Source: a virus
Strand: one strand, 5' to 3'
IMG/VR virus record: IMGVR_UViG_3300025413_000099
Coordinates: 1 to 28,616 of that record
Length of the DNA stretch: 28,616 nt
This document shows positions 1,323-28,616 of the stretch, in pieces. The notes under the pieces were generated by a model. That model saw only the letters and a list, made by a program, of their open reading frames with translations. It made no database searches and was not told the DNA's origin. How positions within the stretch are numbered: position 1 is the first letter of the stretch; every line of letters begins with the position of its first letter. Position numbers and translations under genes: made by a program.

Positions 1323-1336
1323 ATCCAGTATTTATA

Positions 1337-11061: not shown

Positions 11062-11397
11062 ATGAGAAATTTATGTAAGATATGTCGACAAAGACCAGTA
11101 GCAGTCAACTACTATAAAGAAGGAAGACCTTATTATAGGTCTAAGTGTGATCACTGTAGCCGAAGCCGTGAACAAGGAAACCCGTTATGGGCTCTAGCAG
11201 GCTATAAAAAGAAGAATGCCTGTGATAAATGTGGATTCAGTAGCAAACATATGGAACAGTTTGATGTGTTCCATATTGATGGAAATTTAATGAACAACAG
11301 CGTCTTGAATCTTAAGACGGTGTGTGCCAATTGTCAACGAGTCCTACATAAAGAGGGCGTTCGCTGGCGTCAAGGGGCTCTAACTCCGGACTTTTAA
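11062..11397 (+). CDS. HNH-type endonuclease with multiple zinc-binding cysteine pairs
   Basis: It has 111 residues. Four CxxC pairs are visible at 5/8, 29/32, 54/57 and 88/91, and an HNH-like core HIDGN at 71-75 is followed by N79, N83 and VCANCQ. Small proteins of this type are common in marine T4-like phages and are annotated as HNH endonucleases. They may be free-standing homing endonucleases that spread between phage genomes, or may process DNA during packaging. The gene stands alone on the plus strand between the minus-strand sheath and gp1 genes. Its last 86 bases overlap the end of gp1 on the other strand, suggesting insertion at the gp1 3' end or genome compaction. Activity is not shown by sequence. 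Confidence 0.85.
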   Translation: MRNLCKICRQRPVAVNYYKEGRPYYRSKCDHCSRSREQGNPLWALAGYKKKNACDKCGFSSKHMEQFDVFHIDGNLMNNSVLNLKTVCANCQRVLHKEGVRWRQGALTPDF

Positions 11398-12825: not shown

Positions 12826-13611
12826 TTAGCCGGTTACCCATGTCAACGGTGTTCCGCCTTCTTTGTAGTTAATTAGATCTTGCTCTAAAACTTCTAATTC
12901 AGCTTTGCCTTCATTTTTAAGAGCAGTGCCGTTTAGTTGAATACCGCCTTGTGGACTGGCAATAGTGGCAAATTTTTCACGAGCCTCGCCTAATATAATT
13001 TTAGAACTGGCCAGGGCAAAGTCCTTGATCCATTGTCCAGCAAAATTATCCGCTAAAATGTCAAAATCTGGACGATAGTTGTACATCCAAACCAGTACTT
13101 CTTCTTCAGACTGCGGACGTTGCATAATAGTCAATACTTTATTGGTCCTATTGTAGGTAAAATTGATATCACTACCAAACATTTTACCAACTTGTTTTTG
13201 GTAACTAGCAAATGCGTAATAAGTAGCCAAGCCGCCCATGTTGGTTGATGCCAATAGATAGGTGTTGGAATAGGCCAAGTTAAAGGGCTCGAACAAACTG
13301 CCGCCATCGCCACCACCGCTTCTACTACCAATACTACGTCTAAATAGCTGTCGAATTTCTGTTACTTCTTTGGGCATGGTGTAATCATTCTGATTAACCT
13401 GTAGCGTTAGGAATCCAAAACTTTCTTCTTGAGCATTACTGCTTCTCTGACGATATTTGGCAAGAGCTCGATCTATAGCAACATTATAGTGCTTGGGATC
13501 CAGTTCTACATCAACCATCCCATCACCTAGGAAAGTCTTAATGTAATCTATAACTTGTTGGCGGGCGTTTTCATTTTCGTTCATGATAATATTTAGCCGT
13601 GTGCTAGCCAT
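12826..13611 (-). CDS. 13: Neck protein, probably T4 gp13-like
   Basis: It has 261 residues; T4 gp13 has 309. The N-terminal helix-loop pattern VIDYIKTFLGDGMVDVELDP (residues about 20-39), then YNVAIDRALAKYRQRSS, matches the start of gp13-type neck proteins, which form the ring at the portal vertex that joins head to tail. The C-terminal half has KVLTIMQRPQSEEEVLVWMY and a helical end with FALASSKIILGEAREKFATI. A second ATG at codon 10 is possible; neither start has a convincing Shine-Dalgarno. The gene is transcribed away from gp14, and the two starts lie only 13 bases apart (13611 and 13624), so the divergent promoters overlap coding ends. In T4 the two genes run in the same direction. Confidence 0.7.
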   Translation of the reverse strand: MASTRLNIIMNENENARQQVIDYIKTFLGDGMVDVELDPKHYNVAIDRALAKYRQRSSNAQEESFGFLTLQVNQNDYTMPKEVTEIRQLFRRSIGSRSGGGDGGSLFEPFNLAYSNTYLLASTNMGGLATYYAFASYQKQVGKMFGSDINFTYNRTNKVLTIMQRPQSEEEVLVWMYNYRPDFDILADNFAGQWIKDFALASSKIILGEAREKFATIASPQGGIQLNGTALKNEGKAELEVLEQDLINYKEGGTPLTWVTG

Positions 13612-13623: not shown

Positions 13624-13779
13624 ATGCCAATACTAAATTCATTTTTGACCAACAAGTACACTCGCTGGTATTATGCAATTGTTGCCAACGCACAGAGCAG
13701 AATAACCAGCGATTACACAGAAAAACATCATATTGATAATTGCAAGGTTGTCAAAGGAGAATTAAAATTCCTCGTCTAA
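13624..13779 (+). pseudogene. Truncated HNH homing-endonuclease remnant (51 codons)
   Basis: An ATG at 13624 opens a 51-codon frame that ends at TAA 13777-13779. Its residues NKYTRWYYAIVANAQ (10-24) and YTEKHHI (31-37) match the N-terminus of a common phage HNH homing-endonuclease type, in which EKHHI holds the first histidines of the active site and is normally followed by IPRSLGG and a further 100 or more residues. Here the match stops right after HHI, and unrelated codons lead into the ribosome site of gp14. The body of the nuclease is therefore missing. The fragment may still be translated as a leader, since its stop lies 10 bases past the probable gp14 start. No other function is visible. 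Confidence 0.65.
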
Positions 13780-14984
13780 GTTTATACAAACCCGAAAAGG
13801 GCAATGATTTTAGATTCCTTGATAGAATTATCAATGAAGAATTCCAAGTTGGTGGGACTGATGTATTTGTTCACAAATATCTAGGACCTGTAAATCCAGC
13901 AGAGGGGACTGCTACCCCGGCAGTTCCAGATACTAGTGCTAATCCTATTCCTGAATTAAGTATCCAAGATGTGCTTTTAATGGAAAATAGAGATAGAAAC
14001 TATGCTCCTGACATTTATGTTATCCGTGGAATCTATACCATGCAGGATTTGGATTTTAATCTAAGTCAGTTTGGTATGTTTTTAAGTAACGATAATATTT
14101 TTATCATGTTTCACCTACGCGGCACTGTAGATGCGCTGTCTAGAAAAATTATGCCTGGCGATGTCATTGAATTACCTCACTTAAAAGACGAGTATGGACT
14201 AGACGAATCGTTGGTGGCCTTAAAAAGATTTTATGTTGTTCAAGACGTTACTCGTCCAGCGGCTGGATATAGCCCTACATGGTACCCGCACTTACTACGT
14301 GCTAAATGTGTACCTCTAGTAGATAGTCAAGAATACAAACAAATCTTTGATCAAGATGCTGGTAATGGAGACGGCAGCACATTGCGAGACCTACTGAGTA
14401 CATATCAACAAAGTGTTGATATTAATAATCAAATTATCGCCCAAGCAACACTGGATGCGCCACAAAGTGGATTTGACACTACCCCTTTGTACATCGTACC
14501 TCTTACAGATGCTGGGCTATTAGACGTTGCCGACGCATCAACAATGGATCAAGATGCTAGTATTGAACAACCTGCCTATGATGCCAGTATTGTGCTACAT
14601 AGTCCCAGCAAGATTGAATATGTTTCTTATCCCAACGGAGGTGGTACTCAACCTCCTGATGGCGCACCATTTAGCGCTGGTATTGAATTTCCAGGCGGAG
14701 CAGTGGTAGGTCAATTCTTTTTAAGAACAGACTATTTGCCAAATGTACTTTATAGATTTGATGGTAAACATTGGATACAATGGCAAAAAGATGTTAGAAT
14801 GACCATGAATAATTTCAGTAGCAGTGATGTTGCGCCAGGTACAGTGTTTGCTGGACAACAAGTTAGACTAACAGAAAAAACTGGATTCATTAATAATACT
14901 GCTACTATAACACTGAATGATGGATTAACATATCCACAACGTCAACCATTGAGTAAAGTATTAAAACCTAAAGCGGATCTCTAA
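13767..14984 (+). CDS. 14: Neck protein, T4 gp14-like, with probable ATT start
   Basis: This protein joins the head to the tail together with gp13. The family signature is clear: FRFLDRIINEEFQVGGTDVF near the start, then MENRDRNYAPDIYVIRGIYT, DFNLSQFGMFL, IMPGDVIELPHLKDEY, and WYPHLLRAKC with PLVDSQEY. The length of about 405 residues exceeds T4 gp14 (256). The extra C-terminal part has a W-rich module, GQFFLRT...YRFDGKHW at about 315-336, like those in the sheath insertion. No in-frame ATG exists near the start. AGGAG at 13755-13759 lies 7 bases before an ATT codon at 13767, which would give the N-terminus (M)PRLSLYKPEKG. The only conventional alternative is TTG at 13740, adding nine residues without a ribosome site. 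Confidence 0.9.
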   Translation: MPRLSLYKPEKGNDFRFLDRIINEEFQVGGTDVFVHKYLGPVNPAEGTATPAVPDTSANPIPELSIQDVLLMENRDRNYAPDIYVIRGIYTMQDLDFNLSQFGMFLSNDNIFIMFHLRGTVDALSRKIMPGDVIELPHLKDEYGLDESLVALKRFYVVQDVTRPAAGYSPTWYPHLLRAKCVPLVDSQEYKQIFDQDAGNGDGSTLRDLLSTYQQSVDINNQIIAQATLDAPQSGFDTTPLYIVPLTDAGLLDVADASTMDQDASIEQPAYDASIVLHSPSKIEYVSYPNGGGTQPPDGAPFSAGIEFPGGAVVGQFFLRTDYLPNVLYRFDGKHWIQWQKDVRMTMNNFSSSDVAPGTVFAGQQVRLTEKTGFINNTATITLNDGLTYPQRQPLSKVLKPKADL

Positions 14985-15037: not shown

Positions 15038-16405
15038 ATTATTCAATATTTTTATGATGGCCAACTGCGCCGATATATCACTCAATTTATTCGACTGATG
15101 AGTAATTTCAGTTATAAAGATGCCACAGGTAAAATTACACAGGTACCAGTACGTTACGGCGACCTAAGTAGACAAGTGGGTCAAATACTGAGAAAGAACA
15201 GTGAAAATACAGTGCCCAGCGCACCTTTGATTGCCTGCTACATCAAGGATATGAAGTATGATCGCACTAGACTACAGGATCCAACATTTGTCAGTACAGT
15301 CAATCTGCAACAACGTGCTATTGATGCCAATGGGAATTTGCTAAACACACAGGGTAATAATTACACTGTGGAAAGAATCATGCCCAGTCCCTATAAGGTA
15401 ACTTTTGCCGCAGATATCTGGACCAGTAATACTGATCAAAAATTTCAAATAATTGAACAAATTGCCATGGTGTTCAATCCTAGTTTAAATTTACAAACTA
15501 CCGATAACTATGTGGACTGGACCAGTCTTATCACGTTAACATTGACTGATCAAGGTAATTGGTCCAGCAGACAAATTCCTCAAGGACTGGAACAAGATAT
15601 TGATATATCATCATTGGTTTTTGAAAGCCCTATATGGATTTCACCCCCAGCCAATGTCACACAACTAAACATTGTTACACAAATTATTTCCAATGTATTT
15701 GATGATACACAGGGATTGATATCTGGACTAGAAGCAGGTTATGGTGCTCAAATATTTGGCACCCCAGATGTCAGTGTGGTCGTTACACCAACTGATTACA
15801 ACTTGCTGGTTTTAGATGGTGTTGCTACTTTGCAGGCCAACACATTTACTAATTTAGATATAAATGCCAATCAGCCGCCAATTTCTTGGAACGCAGTATT
15901 AGGCTTGTATCCAGGAAAATTTACAGCAGGGTTGAGTCAACTAAGATTAAAGAAACCCAACGGTTTAGAAATTGTGGCATTCATGACTCTAAGTCCAACA
16001 GATGAAACAAAGATGATATTAAATTTTGATGCAGCCACCATACCTGAAAATACTATTATTGATGGAAGAGGTTCAGTGGATGCTGTTATTAATCCAGATA
16101 CATTTAACCCCAGTGTCAAAGTAGCAGGCACTAGATATCTAATTTTAGAGGATATACACTCTGTGCCTGTGATAGGTCCGTCAGCATGGTTAAACAGTGA
16201 TGGGTCAGGATTTGTTGCTCATGCCAATGACATTATACAGTGGAATGGATCATCATGGAGTGTTATATTCAATTCTGCTGCCAGCACTACTGTAACATAC
16301 ATAACTAATGCTTATACGGGTATACAATACATGTGGAACGGCACCGAGTGGGGCAAGAGTTACGATGGTGTATACGATAAGGCATCATGGCGGTTAATCC
16401 TTTAA
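15038..16405 (+). CDS. 15: Tail sheath terminator / proximal tail protein, T4 gp15-like
   Basis: gp15 caps the finished tail and binds the neck. The first in-frame ATG (15098) leaves 435 residues, but the frame stays open upstream to a TAA at 15023. The extra codons read YFYDGQLRRYITQFIRL, which aligns with the start of T4 gp15 (MFGYFYNSSFRRY). The true start is therefore upstream, most likely ATT at 15038 (455 residues) or 15041. Conserved parts include QVPVRYGDLSRQV, SAPLIACYIKDMKYDRTRLQ, YTVERIMPSPYKVTFAADIW, NTDQKFQIIEQIAMVFNPSL and FESPIWISPPANV. The C-terminal 80 residues hold two NG-x-x-W modules. T4 gp15 has 272 residues, so the protein is extended. Its last 19 bases overlap the NUDIX gene. 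Confidence 0.88.
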   Translation: MIQYFYDGQLRRYITQFIRLMSNFSYKDATGKITQVPVRYGDLSRQVGQILRKNSENTVPSAPLIACYIKDMKYDRTRLQDPTFVSTVNLQQRAIDANGNLLNTQGNNYTVERIMPSPYKVTFAADIWTSNTDQKFQIIEQIAMVFNPSLNLQTTDNYVDWTSLITLTLTDQGNWSSRQIPQGLEQDIDISSLVFESPIWISPPANVTQLNIVTQIISNVFDDTQGLISGLEAGYGAQIFGTPDVSVVVTPTDYNLLVLDGVATLQANTFTNLDINANQPPISWNAVLGLYPGKFTAGLSQLRLKKPNGLEIVAFMTLSPTDETKMILNFDAATIPENTIIDGRGSVDAVINPDTFNPSVKVAGTRYLILEDIHSVPVIGPSAWLNSDGSGFVAHANDIIQWNGSSWSVIFNSAASTTVTYITNAYTGIQYMWNGTEWGKSYDGVYDKASWRLIL

Positions 16406-16827
16406 ATCAAATTATTTGTAGTGGCGGACTATTCCTTGCTGAGGACACCAAAAGGTTTCTATTACTGTTAAGAAATCAAGGTAAAACATCTGGTACTTGG
16501 GGACTAGTTGGTGGCAAAAAAGAACCCACCGATGTCACTGCTGTTGATGCGCTACATAGAGAAATATTGGAAGAAGTGGGCAAACCCCCTAAAATAAAAA
16601 AAATAGTTCCGTTAGAATTATTTGTGTCCAGCGATGATAATTTTCAATACAATACCTATGTGTTGATTGTTGAAAAGGAGTTTATTCCTGTACTAAATGA
16701 CGAACATACTAGCTATGCTTGGTGTAGTTACAGTGCGTGGCCCAAACCCTTGCATTCGGGGGTAAAAAACAGTCTCAACAATCGAGTGGTCAAGGCCAAA
16801 TTAGAATTGCTCTTGGACTTAATTTAA
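16387..16827 (+). CDS. NUDIX hydrolase
   Basis: It has 146 residues. NUDIX enzymes hydrolyse nucleoside diphosphates linked to another moiety, such as damaged dNTPs, ADP-ribose or capped RNA. The NUDIX box spans about 43-65: GG at 42-43, then R58 E59 and E62 E63 in HREILEEVGK, the metal ligands. The box is slightly unusual: the glutamate expected between G and RE is an aspartate (D49), and one extra residue separates it from RE. The typical strand before the box is present (TSGTWGLVGGKKEP). Substrate cannot be told. It overlaps the gp15 end by 19 bases and lies 13 bases before the halogenase-like gene, so the two are probably co-expressed. Confidence 0.88.
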   Translation: MAVNPLNQIICSGGLFLAEDTKRFLLLLRNQGKTSGTWGLVGGKKEPTDVTAVDALHREILEEVGKPPKIKKIVPLELFVSSDDNFQYNTYVLIVEKEFIPVLNDEHTSYAWCSYSAWPKPLHSGVKNSLNNRVVKAKLELLLDLI

Positions 16828-16840
16828 TTTATAATTAACT

Positions 16841-18028
16841 ATGAAAAAAAGAATGTTAGTAATTGGAGTAGGCTCTGCTGGTATTTTGACACTGAGTCAA
16901 ATGCTAGAAGGGTTGGGTGACGATTGGGAAATACATTCTGTACATGATCCAAAAATACCAATCTTAGGGGTTGGTGAAGCAACCAGTACTCTTGCGCCCA
17001 ATGCTCTATTCAAAGGCACAGATTTTATTATTGCTAGGGACAGTCATCATTTAGATGCCACGGTAAAATTCAGTGTCAAATATTCAAATTGGCGTGAGCA
17101 TAGTTTTCATAGTTGGTTAATCCCCCAGGCCTATGCGTTGCATTTTGATAATACACGTCTTAAAGATTTTGCCTTCATGAGGTTTAAAGAAAAGTATCCT
17201 ACTAGATTTGTTATTCATGAAGGTACTGTGGATTATTTTAAAAACACTGAACGATCTGTTGAAGTTTCCATCAATAATCAAATAAGTCAATACGATTATG
17301 TTATTGACTGCGGTGGGTTCCCCAAAGACTATAAGGGGTATACCATGATTGATCTACCGCTGAATAGCGCACTGGTCACTGCTATACAGAAGCCTGGAGA
17401 TTGGAACTACACACATCATTGGGCACACAAACATGGATGGATGTTTGGCATCCCACTTCAATCTAGACAAGGGTGGGGATATATGTACAACAGCGACATA
17501 ACATCTAAGAATGATGCTATTGAAGACGTTTGTGATATTTTACAATTAGATCCTGAAGAAACTAATTTTAGAGAGTACGCATTCAATCCTTATTATGCCA
17601 CTGATAATTTGATAGATGGTAGAATATTAAAAAATGGCAATAGATTTATGTTCTTTGAACCCATGGAAGCTATGTCAATGGAATATTACACTAGCCTAAA
17701 CATGAGATATCTATTGATGATTAATGGCAAAGTATCCAAAAAAGCCTTGATAAAATACACTAGAGAAGATATGGAATCATTGATTATGTTTTATCGATTC
17801 ATATATCACGGTGGGTCTACTTATGATACCAAATTTTGGCAAACAACCAAAGAAAAAACATCTTATTATTTAAAGAACACACCCCAATTTCAAACAGCCG
17901 TCGATTACTACAAAAATAATTATGAAGATTTAAAAAGACAAGGCGGTAATATGATCATTGCGCCATTTGATGTCTATGTATGGCGAATATTTGATCGAGA
18001 ATTAGGATATAATTATTTTGACAAATAA
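16841..18028 (+). CDS. Flavin-dependent tryptophan-halogenase-like protein
   Basis: It has 395 residues. Such enzymes use FADH2, oxygen and halide to halogenate aromatic substrates. The FAD site GVGSAG is at 9-14, and GVGEATSTLAPN at 43-54 matches the second family motif. LDATVKFSVKYSNW at 71-84 matches the stretch with the catalytic lysine of PrnA-type enzymes, with K76 or its near neighbour in that role. YDYVIDCGGFP at 151-161 is the conserved flavin-fold strand. GWMFGIP at 199-205 corresponds to the WxWxIP motif with the second Trp replaced by Phe. FEPMEAMSM at 272-280 matches EPLEST, keeping the glutamate but with Ala for Ser. The protein is shorter than PrnA (about 538). VirX1 of cyanophage Syn10 is a published viral relative. 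A strong terminator follows directly. Substrate is unknown. Confidence 0.85.
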   Translation: MKKRMLVIGVGSAGILTLSQMLEGLGDDWEIHSVHDPKIPILGVGEATSTLAPNALFKGTDFIIARDSHHLDATVKFSVKYSNWREHSFHSWLIPQAYALHFDNTRLKDFAFMRFKEKYPTRFVIHEGTVDYFKNTERSVEVSINNQISQYDYVIDCGGFPKDYKGYTMIDLPLNSALVTAIQKPGDWNYTHHWAHKHGWMFGIPLQSRQGWGYMYNSDITSKNDAIEDVCDILQLDPEETNFREYAFNPYYATDNLIDGRILKNGNRFMFFEPMEAMSMEYYTSLNMRYLLMINGKVSKKALIKYTREDMESLIMFYRFIYHGGSTYDTKFWQTTKEKTSYYLKNTPQFQTAVDYYKNNYEDLKRQGGNMIIAPFDVYVWRIFDRELGYNYFDK

Positions 18029-18054
18029 AAAAGCCCCAATGAATGGGGCTTTTT
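18028..18054. terminator. Bidirectional intrinsic terminator between convergent units
   Basis: A perfect 11-bp stem (AAAAAGCCCCA with TGGGGCTTTTT) closes a 5-base loop. It has a T-run on both strands, so it can end the halogenase operon on the plus strand and the tail-fibre unit on the minus strand. Confidence 0.92.
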
Positions 18055-25661: not shown

Positions 25662-28616
25662 TTAAACTTGTGGTTTTTGGATTTCAACTACCAGTTTTTC
25701 AACATCACAGCGTTCGCCAAACACTGTGTAGAAGCAGTCTACAGTTTTACCAAACAAGTTATCATTACCTATGATAATCACATTGTCTTTAATTTCTTCA
25801 ACATATAATTTTTGATGTTTGCCTACTGGGGTCAAGTTTACAGTAATTGAGTCAGGATCGACTAATTTAGTCCAGTATTCTGGAAGTTCAATCCTATTGC
25901 CCTTTAGTCTGCCGCGTACATAAACACCGTTTTCTGGTCCTTCTAAACTACCATAACGTAGGTCGTATCCTGGACGTGTTGGATGTTCAATTACGAAAGA
26001 TTTGGTTGAAGCCGCAAAACTGCCAACAACCTGTAGTGTGTAACTTCCAGGAGTGGCTGTACCAATTAATACGCCACCGCCATAGGGCTGTAGTTGTATA
26101 CTACCCGCATTGCCACCAGACTGTACAGATTGTAGTTGATAGTTACCAGCTGACAATCTTCTCACATACATTTCATCACTGCTACTTGCGCCAACAGCAA
26201 TGGAAGGACTGCTACCTGCGCCTGCGTCATAGACTGTTAGAGCCGCTGTACCGCCAGTTGTATATGGGCTAGTAGTTCCTAAGGTTAATTGACCAGCACT
26301 AGTTAATCGTAAAACTTCAGTATTGCCATTGGTCCAATGATGAGCCGTAGCATAATATGTTAAATCAAAATACGCTGATGTGGATCTATTATAGGCCTGT
26401 ACGAATCCGCCGCTGTTAATACCACTAGTTGGGCTGATTTCTATACCAGCGGCACCAGCATTAGATACAACCAATTGATAACTTGGGTTAGTTATACCCA
26501 GACCCAAATACCCGCTGCCATTAAGGAACATAAAGGTAGATGCGCCATTACCCCATGCCTGCGTGCCTGCGTTAGGATATCGTTCGTGCCAAGTTAAACT
26601 TGTAGCAGGAGTAGTGAACGAAGCATCAACCCAAACTCCGTGGGTAATTTTTTCTGTTGTCCAATCTGTACCAGCACTAGCTCTAGTACGCCATTCTTGA
26701 AAGTACACATTGTTGCTAGTACCGCCACTTGCTTGCGTTGACAATACTGGAGTATAGTTGCCAGCAGTGCCACCCAATGCCTGAGTGGCATATACGTTTA
26801 ATGGCGAAACAAGATTACTAGTACCAATACCTATATAACCAGTACTTGGGTTGATAACATGGGTACTAGTAGTATATACTGACTGTGCTGATGGACTTGC
26901 GTTATTAGCACTAACAAACGTCAAGTAGTTAGTTGCGTTAGCGGCATTGGCCTGAGTTTGAACTTGACTGACACCGCCACTAAATGCGCCAACGAATGTT
27001 GTAGCAGTAACAATACTACTGAAATAACCACCACCTTGAACACTGAGTTTAGCGCCTTGTTGTGGTGCTGTCCAGTTGGCACTAATTTGTAGATTACCGC
27101 TGGTATCTAAATTCATCACAGTACCACCAGATATCTGTGTCTGCATACCCAAACCAGTAGTAACGTCAACGTAGGCAATACCTCCGCTGACACCCATACT
27201 CATACGGTTGCCAGCGCTGCCGTTCTGTCTCATGTATACGGGACCGTAGACGTCTAGTACATTATTGCCGCCGTAACTGTCAGTGTCCGCAGGCGCACTT
27301 GTACCAATACCAAACTTGTTACCAGTAGGAATATAAACTAATCCAGTTGGTCCGTTAGCTTCTAGTGTTGCCGAACCAGTTGATGTATTGGCAAATACCA
27401 TATATTGCGGTGTAGCGCCACTGGAAGTTTGTGTCAAGTTAACAGTTGACACGCTGATTGTGTTCCAAGAAGGAGATGCATTGCCGTTACTCATTAGGTA
27501 CTGACCAGCAGTTCCATAACCAGTTGTTGAAGTGAATGCAATACCACCAGTTGGCGTGATATATAATCTTGGTGTTAGCGCACCACCTGATGTGCCATTA
27601 CCAATTTCTAAAACACCAGTGACGTCCCAAATACCCCAATTATAGGTTCCGTCAACTAATAGATATCCACCGCCGTATGCGCCGTTAGCAACATGACCAA
27701 AACCTGCTGTACTAGCACCTGGGTTTGTAGCACCAGTTGTAGAATAGAAATTTGTAGAAGTTGTGGTTCCGTTAACATAAGCACCGCCATTTACACTGAG
27801 CAGTGCCCCTTGTTGTTGAGCATAACTGGTGGATGTTGGAGACATTGTGATGCCTCCAACAGCATTGATATTAAATGCAGCACCACTATATTGAACGAAT
27901 CCACCACTGCCGTTGTCTTTTATGTATTGACCGTTGGCAAAGTTTATTGGTGTAGGCTGTGTAAGACTCACAGTGCCGCCCACACTCAATGTTCCTGTTA
28001 CTGTTAGTGTGGTCCCGTTCCATGTTAAATTATTACTTCCGCTCAATAGGCCGCCTGTGCCAGCATAAGTAACTTGGTTGGCCGACAACCCTGTATCAGT
28101 AATGTTTGCAGCTTTTAATCCAGATGCCGCACTGCCACCAACTACCCAGTTGGCACTACCATCGTATAAGAATGATGCGTAAGGTGTACTTGTTGTACCA
28201 ACTTGTATTCCGCTGTTAGCCGCAGTGGCCGCACTAGCACTACTTGTGCTAAATGTTAAGGTAGCATCGCCTGTAGCTAAGTTTGTTTTATTAATGTAAG
28301 TTTGTTGTCCGTCAATATACAAATCACCAGCAATATAAATGCTATTTGTGGCGGCATTATATGAAAGGTTTGTTGTAGCATAAGCGGTTTGATTGCTACC
28401 AATTGTGCCAACCATCACAGGATATAAGGTGCCAGAAGCTGTGCTTGTAGCATTGATAATGTTGCTTGGTCCAGCACTACCTGAATAGCCAATGCTACCA
28501 GTATAACCTTGTGGTCCTTGTGGACCAATTGATCCGGTATAGCCTACACTACCTGAATAACCAACAGATCCGGCATACCCAATGCTACCTGTGTAACCCA
28601 CACTACCCCAATAACC
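25662..28616 (-). CDS. Tail fibre protein with collagen-like N-terminal repeats (5' end outside window)
   Basis: The open frame reaches the right edge without a start, so the N-terminus is missing; a GTG at 28601 is inside the repeats and is not a likely start. About 985 residues are visible. The first 48 are collagen-like (GYTGSIGYAGSVGYSGSVG pattern). The middle has beta-structural repeats of the type FGIGTSAP...LDVYG, at least five copies, and two copies of QQGA(K/L)LSV(Q/N)GG. The C-terminal 120 residues form a separate conserved domain: KSFVIEHPTRPGYDLRYGSL, then EGPENGVYVRGRL, LPEYWTKLVDPDSITVNLTP and a final FYTVFGERCDVEKL. This domain ends fibres in marine phages and some bacterial surface proteins and differs from S74. 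The role is probably adsorption, together with the giant fibre. Confidence 0.9.
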   Translation of the reverse strand, partial: GYWGSVGYTGSIGYAGSVGYSGSVGYTGSIGPQGPQGYTGSIGYSGSAGPSNIINATSTASGTLYPVMVGTIGSNQTAYATTNLSYNAATNSIYIAGDLYIDGQQTYINKTNLATGDATLTFSTSSASAATAANSGIQVGTTSTPYASFLYDGSANWVVGGSAASGLKAANITDTGLSANQVTYAGTGGLLSGSNNLTWNGTTLTVTGTLSVGGTVSLTQPTPINFANGQYIKDNGSGGFVQYSGAAFNINAVGGITMSPTSTSYAQQQGALLSVNGGAYVNGTTTSTNFYSTTGATNPGASTAGFGHVANGAYGGGYLLVDGTYNWGIWDVTGVLEIGNGTSGGALTPRLYITPTGGIAFTSTTGYGTAGQYLMSNGNASPSWNTISVSTVNLTQTSSGATPQYMVFANTSTGSATLEANGPTGLVYIPTGNKFGIGTSAPADTDSYGGNNVLDVYGPVYMRQNGSAGNRMSMGVSGGIAYVDVTTGLGMQTQISGGTVMNLDTSGNLQISANWTAPQQGAKLSVQGGGYFSSIVTATTFVGAFSGGVSQVQTQANAANATNYLTFVSANNASPSAQSVYTTSTHVINPSTGYIGIGTSNLVSPLNVYATQALGGTAGNYTPVLSTQASGGTSNNVYFQEWRTRASAGTDWTTEKITHGVWVDASFTTPATSLTWHERYPNAGTQAWGNGASTFMFLNGSGYLGLGITNPSYQLVVSNAGAAGIEISPTSGINSGGFVQAYNRSTSAYFDLTYYATAHHWTNGNTEVLRLTSAGQLTLGTTSPYTTGGTAALTVYDAGAGSSPSIAVGASSSDEMYVRRLSAGNYQLQSVQSGGNAGSIQLQPYGGGVLIGTATPGSYTLQVVGSFAASTKSFVIEHPTRPGYDLRYGSLEGPENGVYVRGRLKGNRIELPEYWTKLVDPDSITVNLTPVGKHQKLYVEEIKDNVIIIGNDNLFGKTVDCFYTVFGERCDVEKLVVEIQKPQV
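28471..28616 (-). repeat. Collagen-like Gly-x-y repeats
   Basis: The minus strand encodes tandem six-residue units of the form GY(T/S/A)GS(I/V), interrupted once by GPQGPQ. Each unit is 18 bases, so the DNA is a short tandem repeat prone to length change. Such repeats form triple helices in phage fibres. The array continues past the window edge. Confidence 0.85.

Follow-up and report, generated by a model that had tools for sequence, protein, structure and literature searches.

A short-form flavin-dependent halogenase gene of a virus and its clade, predicted to have an open active site

Introduction

Tryptophan-type halogenases normally attach chlorine or bromine to molecules. Since 2010 at the latest, phage genes annotated as "tryptophan halogenases" have appeared in lists of auxiliary metabolic genes, and the passages on them in PMC3037559 and PMC2984593 give no known natural substrate. 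A table in PMC3037559 lists cyanophage prnA genes with sizes of 1104-1167 bp, and, thus, genes of this kind are already known. For cyanophage prnA a role in the production of an antibiotic-like metabolite was suggested in the relevant sections of PMC2984593 and PMC9964418. Another viral halogenase is VirX1 of cyanophage Syn10 (530 aa, 6qgm), the wide scope of which is attributed to a missing helical lid in the part of PMC7948982 in which it is compared with Thal. In addition, a halogenase-carbamoyltransferase-2OG cluster is present in the jumbo cyanophage S-SSM6a, and in the section of PMC7824862 that deals with it the authors interpret it as a system for a metabolite or for the capsule. The halogenase of this cluster is a long form, judged from the near twin S-SSM7.

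The gene analyzed here is not new as such. What appears to be new, judged from the sequences, is a short lidless clade that is set apart from the VirX1 and PrnA types. In the open-licence PMC literature no paper was found that treats this short form as a group or that describes an assay of it.

Results

The halogenase gene and its surroundings

The window is the whole stretch of viral DNA that was analyzed, 28,616 nucleotides of the IMG/VR record IMGVR_UViG_3300025413_000099. The halogenase gene is an open frame without internal stop, and its features are summarized in Table 1. It closes a plus-strand run, in which it is preceded by a virion structural gene, a gp15-like gene, and a NUDIX gene. 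Profile scans revealed a head-tail adaptor-like gene (12826-13611) on the opposite strand. The virion-type and NUDIX genes that the initial annotation had placed upstream were verified by profile matches, and a terminator-like stem was indeed found directly after the halogenase gene. It has T-runs on both strands and, thus, the terminator would be bidirectional. The same 395-aa protein, with the same genes around it, is encoded by the 156-kb viral contig G003.

Table 1. Features of the halogenase gene and of the neighboring region of the window.
Feature	Position	Strand	Basis and remarks
Virion structural protein gene, exact start uncertain	13740..14984	+	phrog_11591, 7.3e-78; opens the plus-strand run
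gp15-like tail sheath stabiliser gene	15098..16405	+	PF16724, 4.2e-20
NUDIX hydrolase gene	16387..16827	+	PF00293, 1.4e-12; 13 nt 5' of the halogenase gene; overlaps the end of the gp15 gene
Short-form flavin-dependent halogenase CDS, 395 aa	16841..18028	+	translation, profiles, fold model, dN/dS
GxGxxG flavin-binding motif, G9-G14	16865..16882	+	G9, G11, G14 invariant, 74/74
K76, catalytic-type lysine	17066..17068	+	aligns with the RebH lysine (PrnA K79); invariant, 74/74
W200-P205, WMFGIP, Phe for the second Trp of WxWxIP	17438..17455	+	W200, F202 in 74/74
F271-S279, FFEPMEAMS, with E273-P274 and E276	17651..17677	+	E273/P274 in 74/74
Bidirectional terminator-like stem-loop, 11 pairs	18028..18054	both	consensus match only; convergent border with minus-strand genes

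The flavin reductase family PF01613 was found in none of eight phage records, several of which are fragments and one of which is the 156-kb record with the same gene. This agrees with the earlier observation that no flavin reductase is visible, and the reduced flavin is therefore probably supplied by the host. Among the window genes scanned by profiles no secondary-metabolite pathway gene was recognized, and neither a hydroxylase nor a carbamoyltransferase partner was found within 8 kb of the halogenase gene. The T4 late-promoter octamer TATAAATA occurs once in the window (1329-1336, minus strand) versus 3.3 expected occurrences, and its one-mismatch sites number 61 versus 69 expected. The octamer is not enriched and, therefore, the occurrence of TATAATTA at 16830-16837, directly 5' of the halogenase gene, is uninformative.

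Two observations concern other parts of the window. Positions 25662-28601 correspond to part of a fibre-like protein with collagen-like GYxG repeats (G003 66440-73747, 2435 aa, 42 GYxG motifs, 5.7% Tyr), and a second fibre-like GYxG protein is encoded at 128629-131706 of G003 (55 motifs). A plus-strand ORF of 111 aa (11062-11397), which overlaps the end of the deoxynucleotide monophosphate kinase gene on the other strand, has a weak similarity to HNH endonucleases (E 0.04, below the cut-off).

Family and fold

The profile PF04820 (Trp_halogenase) matched the 395-aa protein in hmmscan with an E-value of 2.6e-27 (96.2 bits versus a cut-off of 21), and phrog_2928, annotated as tryptophan halogenase, matched with 1.9e-70 (239 bits). 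None of the NCBIfam profiles came near its cut-off. Five of 14 control genomes, including E. coli, likewise contained matches above the cut-off of PF04820, and thus the Pfam match alone does not prove a halogenase and the fold was the discriminating test.

RebH was matched by sequence with an E-value of 9.2e-20. An AlphaFold2 model built from 50 aligned relatives had a pLDDT of 94.4 and a pTM of 0.92. When Foldseek was used with this model, all 50 matches listed were halogenases, and the best was a RebH variant (1.4e-26). VIA-align yielded Z values of 40.7 for SttH, 40.6 for AbeH, 38.1 for BrvH, 37.1 for the RebH variant, 36.4 for PrnA, and 30.8 for VirX1. In the alignments with SttH, the RebH variant, PrnA, and VirX1, 373-379 residues were superimposed at 2.8-3.0 A. 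The next matches, CndH (28.7) and CmlS (27.6), are also halogenases. In a viral structure library the best match carries no name, and the next one stems from an uncultured phage and is named "flavin-dependent halogenase". The initial annotation had named geranylgeranyl reductases as an example of another flavoprotein group to which the protein might belong. Flavoproteins of this type were absent from the 50 matches listed by each of Foldseek and VIA-align, among which weaker matches would not appear. Taken together, the proposed identity was borne out by profile, sequence, and fold, and, judged from sequence and model, the 395-aa protein is by fold and descent a flavin-dependent halogenase (FDH) of the tryptophan-halogenase type.

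Absence of the substrate insert and of the lid region

In the alignment with RebH, residues 86 and 97 of the protein are opposite to residues 109 and 186 of the RebH chain, and thus about 65 residues are absent. Each of the 16 short forms that were aligned has this internal gap. In addition, the model can be aligned with PrnA only up to residue 472-473 of 538. The tryptophan-binding loop and the lid of the bacterial enzymes are located in these absent stretches. The insert and the C-terminal lid that characterize the free-tryptophan halogenase subgroup (PrnA/RebH/PyrH) were thus not found in the window protein. Because both regions are absent, the active site is predicted to be open. Free tryptophan is thus an unlikely substrate, and the enzyme would more probably act on an aromatic group that is bulkier or exposed, e.g., on a protein.

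The C-terminus also differs between relatives. The halogenases of the loci L010, L011, L013, L014, and L015 have a conserved C-terminal tail that ends with IPGLLFG and that the window protein does not have. An interpretation of this tail as a sliding-clamp-binding peptide was considered and set aside: elsewhere in the contigs scanned only chance-like short ORFs fit the pattern, the gp33 proteins of S-SSM5 and S-MS29 have other C-termini, and a search of G001-G006 for a family-B polymerase was negative.

Motifs and catalytic residues

The motifs, the two residue differences (Trp to Phe and Ser to Ala), and the length that had been reported for the protein were all found in the translation. In addition to the motifs of Table 1, it contains G45-E46-A47-T48, A73-T74-V75-K76, and V154-I-D-C-G-G-F. 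An alignment had been proposed as a check of K76 and E276. It places K76 at the lysine of the ASYK stretch of RebH (K79 in the numbering of the PrnA chain) and E276 at the second Glu of EPLEST (PrnA E346).

Conservation was counted in an alignment of 77 distinct of 89 sequences, from which 74 short forms were counted and CP21, HTVC008M, and S-RIM44 were left out. Position 276 is variable (59 E, 10 S, 3 Q, 1 D, and 1 A). A277, in place of the Ser of EPLEST, is found in 70 of the 74 short forms, and S279, in place of the following Gly, in 69; the latter exchange is not among the differences that the initial annotation lists. This conservation indicates that the exchanges of Trp to Phe and of Ser to Ala are signatures of the clade and not oddities of the window gene.

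Two motifs that are used for the recognition of FDHs are thus altered. WxWxIP is replaced by WMFGIP, and, according to the motif section of PMC8407142, WxWxIP or variants of it are missing from some genuine FDHs. The motif Fx.Px.Sx.G, with variants at G, is said in the same section to occur in all active FDHs; the window protein deviates at two of the four positions, i.e., F271 and P274 are kept and A277 and S279 differ. A third motif quoted in that section, FX[DE]PX[EFL], is matched by FFEPME. The corresponding sequence is EPLEATS or EPLQATS in several long phage forms and EPLESTS in the solved chain 9luq, which is named tryptophan halogenase and has the same Gly-to-Ser exchange as the window protein. 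On the level of sequence, both would argue against equating the deviation from Fx.Px.Sx.G with inactivity.

Relatives, phylogeny, and selection

Among named phages 59 records matched, all with less than 60% identity, and the best were S-MS29 and S-SSM5 (42%). In IMG/VR viral contigs at least 574 related stretches were counted, of which the best 80 loci were fetched. To regard the gene as a rarity would thus be an overstatement. A scan of 84,980 cellular species with exact patterns, which distant cellular members can escape, yielded 36 matching stretches. One of these encodes a relative, which has 27% identity and is located on a 5.7-kb contig of an Actinomycetota MAG. A tblastn search against plasmids resulted in 31 records, and the 20 listed had identities of at most 27.7%. 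Within the limits of the cellular pattern scan, the short form appears to be carried by phages.

In a maximum-likelihood tree of 83 rows, all of which were phage proteins and none a bacterial FDH, 55 short forms were separated from 28 others, including VirX1, by a split of 100/99. CP21 (399 aa) and one neighbour of 411 aa fall on the long side. The window protein is outside of the VirX1 clade. It shares the fold, GxGxxG, the catalytic lysine, and the EP motif with VirX1, but the identity is only 21%, and VirX1 is a long form that has kept GWVWNIP and FIEPLESTG. VirX1, which had been invoked as a precedent, is therefore a loose parallel. The bacterial enzymes RebH, PrnA, Thal, and SttH are similar to the window protein with respect to the fold (Z 32-41), the lysine, and the second Glu of EPLE, but they have their own substrate insert and a longer C-terminus, and the identities are 20-24%. 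The short "tryptophan halogenases" of S-SSM5 and S-MS29 (388 aa) belong to the same short clade, with 42% identity over 99% of the query, and share the missing insert and WMFGIP with the window protein. These are marine Synechococcus phages, and their gene adjoins gp33, in contrast to the position after gp15-Nudix in the window.

The dN/dS ratio of the window gene was 0.02 versus L004 (99.5% identity), 0.08 versus L007 (93.7%), 0.12 versus L009 (75.4%, dS 1.4), 0.10 versus L014, and 0.17 versus L012; L010 was saturated. These low values indicate purifying selection and, thus, that the protein is in use.

Position of the gene in related loci

The order gp15-Nudix-halogenase, including the gap of 13 nt, was kept in all five close loci examined (L003, L004, L006, L007, L009). 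The Nudix gene is not followed by a same-strand halogenase in 13 loci that are more distant (Nudix identity 73-85%); 12 of them pass into opposite-strand genes, and in one case the contig ends. The window halogenase is therefore regarded as an accessory insert at the convergent border. On the other strand of this border region the distant Nudix relatives carry either a pair of carbamoyltransferases (L200, L211) or an FDH together with a 2OG gene (L205, L206, L213).

Other neighbours were found in sister loci. The halogenase gene directly follows a dCMP deaminase gene in L010, L011, L013, L014, L015, and L016, some of which are near-identical and two of which were profile-tested, and it directly follows NrdB in L012. 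In S-SSM5 and S-MS29 the gene before the short halogenase is gp33. A position in a virion operon is thus not a property of the family. The virion-gene operon of the initial annotation therefore holds for the nearest relatives, but not for the sister loci or for S-SSM5 and S-MS29, and the reading as a late virion gene was overstated.

2OG-Fe(II) oxygenase genes near short halogenases

Neighbours were counted in 46 representatives (<85% identity) of the 80 loci, with HMMs built from the neighbours of halogenases; counts and p values are uncorrected for shared ancestry. The 2OG-type set comprised PF13759, PF13640, a family with PF13640 just under the cut-off (26.1 versus 27 bits), and the phrog_2954 family. 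Genes of this set were found in 27 of the 46 short-form loci, and in 20 of these 27 one such gene is within 60 nt of the halogenase gene. Further FDH genes were present in 13 of the 46 loci (20 genes), and NolO-like carbamoyltransferases in 6.

The control loci were reduced as well (terminase from 56 to 30, Nudix from 21 to 13, dCMP deaminase from 80 to 47, and hydroxylase from 80 to 38). The terminase control (0/56 before the reduction) represents a core region and was too easy, and Nudix and dCMP-deaminase controls were added. 2OG-type genes were found in 0 of 30 terminase, 1 of 47 dCMP-deaminase, and 3 of 13 Nudix loci, and all three of the latter also carry an FDH. Fisher tests, calculated for two of the three controls without a correction for ancestry, gave p values of 4.5e-10 versus dCMP deaminase and of 1.6e-8 versus terminase. 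The reciprocal count revealed an FDH in only 3 of 38 hydroxylase loci, which weakens a general halogenase-hydroxylase partnership. None of the five loci of the window's own subclade (L002, L009, L010, L012, L014) has a 2OG-type neighbour, although the sequences of L009, L012, and L014 extend no more than 75, 833, and 173 nt farther downstream, respectively. G003 contains one 2OG gene, which is 40 kb away from the halogenase gene and has relatives at 8 loci.

In one contig a single fusion was found. L131:4001-5926 encodes a protein of 641 aa that consists of a short halogenase and a phrog_2954-type domain, for which the best fold match was the prolyl-4-hydroxylase 4j25 (E 3.4e-10). HxD and H are invariant in 11 aligned sequences of this domain type. 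In view of these residues and of the fold, the label "ferrochelatase" of phrog_2954, which applied to the L131 domain and to a neighbour in L048, was dropped in favor of 2OG-Fe(II) oxygenase. No Pfam 2OG hit was obtained for the phrog_2954-type family. Members of phrog_274, labeled "DNA endonuclease V", have weak 2OG-oxygenase features here, whereas the features are clear for phrog_2954, and both labels look wrong for these members.

In the hydroxylase loci (L294-L373) phrog_7759 was found in 33 and phrog_2954-type genes in 34 of the 38 non-redundant loci. The former family had been taken for a tail chaperone, but four of four members tested belong to phrog_7759, which is annotated as unknown function, and have no Pfam hit. 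The claim that hydroxylase islands adjoin a tail gene was therefore dropped. L048:10814-11266 (G006) matches PF16778 and tail fibre assembly families and is not a member of the phrog_7759 family.

Two islands may be described in addition. The island that contains the L131 fusion also carries six 2OG-type genes and a long halogenase. On G006 (IMGVR_UViG_3300032241_001390, 50,921 bp, loci L046-L048) five halogenases are encoded, of which one is short and four are long (488-515 aa, PF04820 scores of 301-360 bits). They are located among eight genes for 2OG-Fe(II) oxygenases that reach or exceed the Pfam cut-off. The contig also carries GroEL/GroES, gp15, Nudix, and the PF16778 gene of the tail fibre assembly type.

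Discussion

The reading that we prefer, and that we regard as rather probable, is that the FDH encoded by the window gene is catalytically competent, has an open active site, does not use free tryptophan, and receives FADH2 from the host. Halogenase activity itself is, on balance, to be expected from sequence and model. The enzyme would bind FADH2 made by a host reductase, the bound FADH2 would react with O2 to a C4a-hydroperoxide, and halide would be converted via this intermediate to hypohalous acid, which K76 and E276 would steer to an electron-rich carbon of the substrate. The deviation from Fx.Px.Sx.G, the Phe in WxWxIP, and the Ser at position 276 in 10 of 74 short forms are points against this reading.

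The motif changes (Trp to Phe, Ser to Ala, and Gly to Ser), together with the missing substrate module, could also indicate a repurposed or leaky FDH, which would release free HOX or H2O2 or oxygenate a substrate without specific halogenation. Leakage of free HOX is described for Thal in PMC7948982. However, K76 is invariant, purifying selection is strong, and the Gly-to-Ser exchange is seen also in the sequence of 9luq, and we consider this explanation rather unlikely.

A narrower version of the preferred reading is that the halogenase and 2OG-Fe(II) hydroxylases modify residues of phage proteins, e.g., of the tail or the fibre. This would fit the high frequency of 2OG-type genes in short-form loci compared to the controls, the L131 fusion, and the fibre of the window phage with its collagen-like Tyr repeats. 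In addition, the short form is located just 5' of structural and tail-fibre genes in S-RIM4 and S-ShM2, and MibH, an FDH titled lanthipeptide tryptophan 5-halogenase, has the same fold in VIA-align. On the other hand, 2OG neighbours are absent from the window's subclade, although three of its loci are cut shortly downstream, few hydroxylase loci carry an FDH, and the frequent companion of the hydroxylases, phrog_7759, gives no indication of a link to the tail. This narrower version is therefore unlikely for the window gene. That the phage-specific lidless halogenases and prolyl-hydroxylase-like 2OG enzymes together halogenate and hydroxylate the phage's own proteins, such as tail or fibre proteins, is a quite speculative extension.

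It is very improbable that the enzyme halogenates nucleotides or DNA bases. The gene directly follows dCMP deaminase in six sister loci and NrdB in L012, and a NUDIX gene precedes it in the window, but nucleotide genes are common in T4-like phages, only 1 of 47 dCMP-deaminase loci carries an FDH, and we know of no FDH that acts on nucleotides. Similarly improbable, and the least likely of these explanations, is a free-tryptophan halogenase that helps the infected host to make an antibiotic-like metabolite, as family name and fold would suggest, because the tryptophan-binding insert and the lid region are absent and no pathway gene was recognized among the window genes scanned.

With a competent, open-site FDH as the preferred reading, the short forms are a lidless clade that has so far been found almost only in phages, beside hydroxylases or fused to them. 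The question to be asked is thereby no longer which metabolite is modified, but which large or exposed substrate. If the preferred reading is true, a compact halogenase with an open site would be a useful biocatalyst, and, if the protein-modifying version is true, halogenation would be a viral protein modification.
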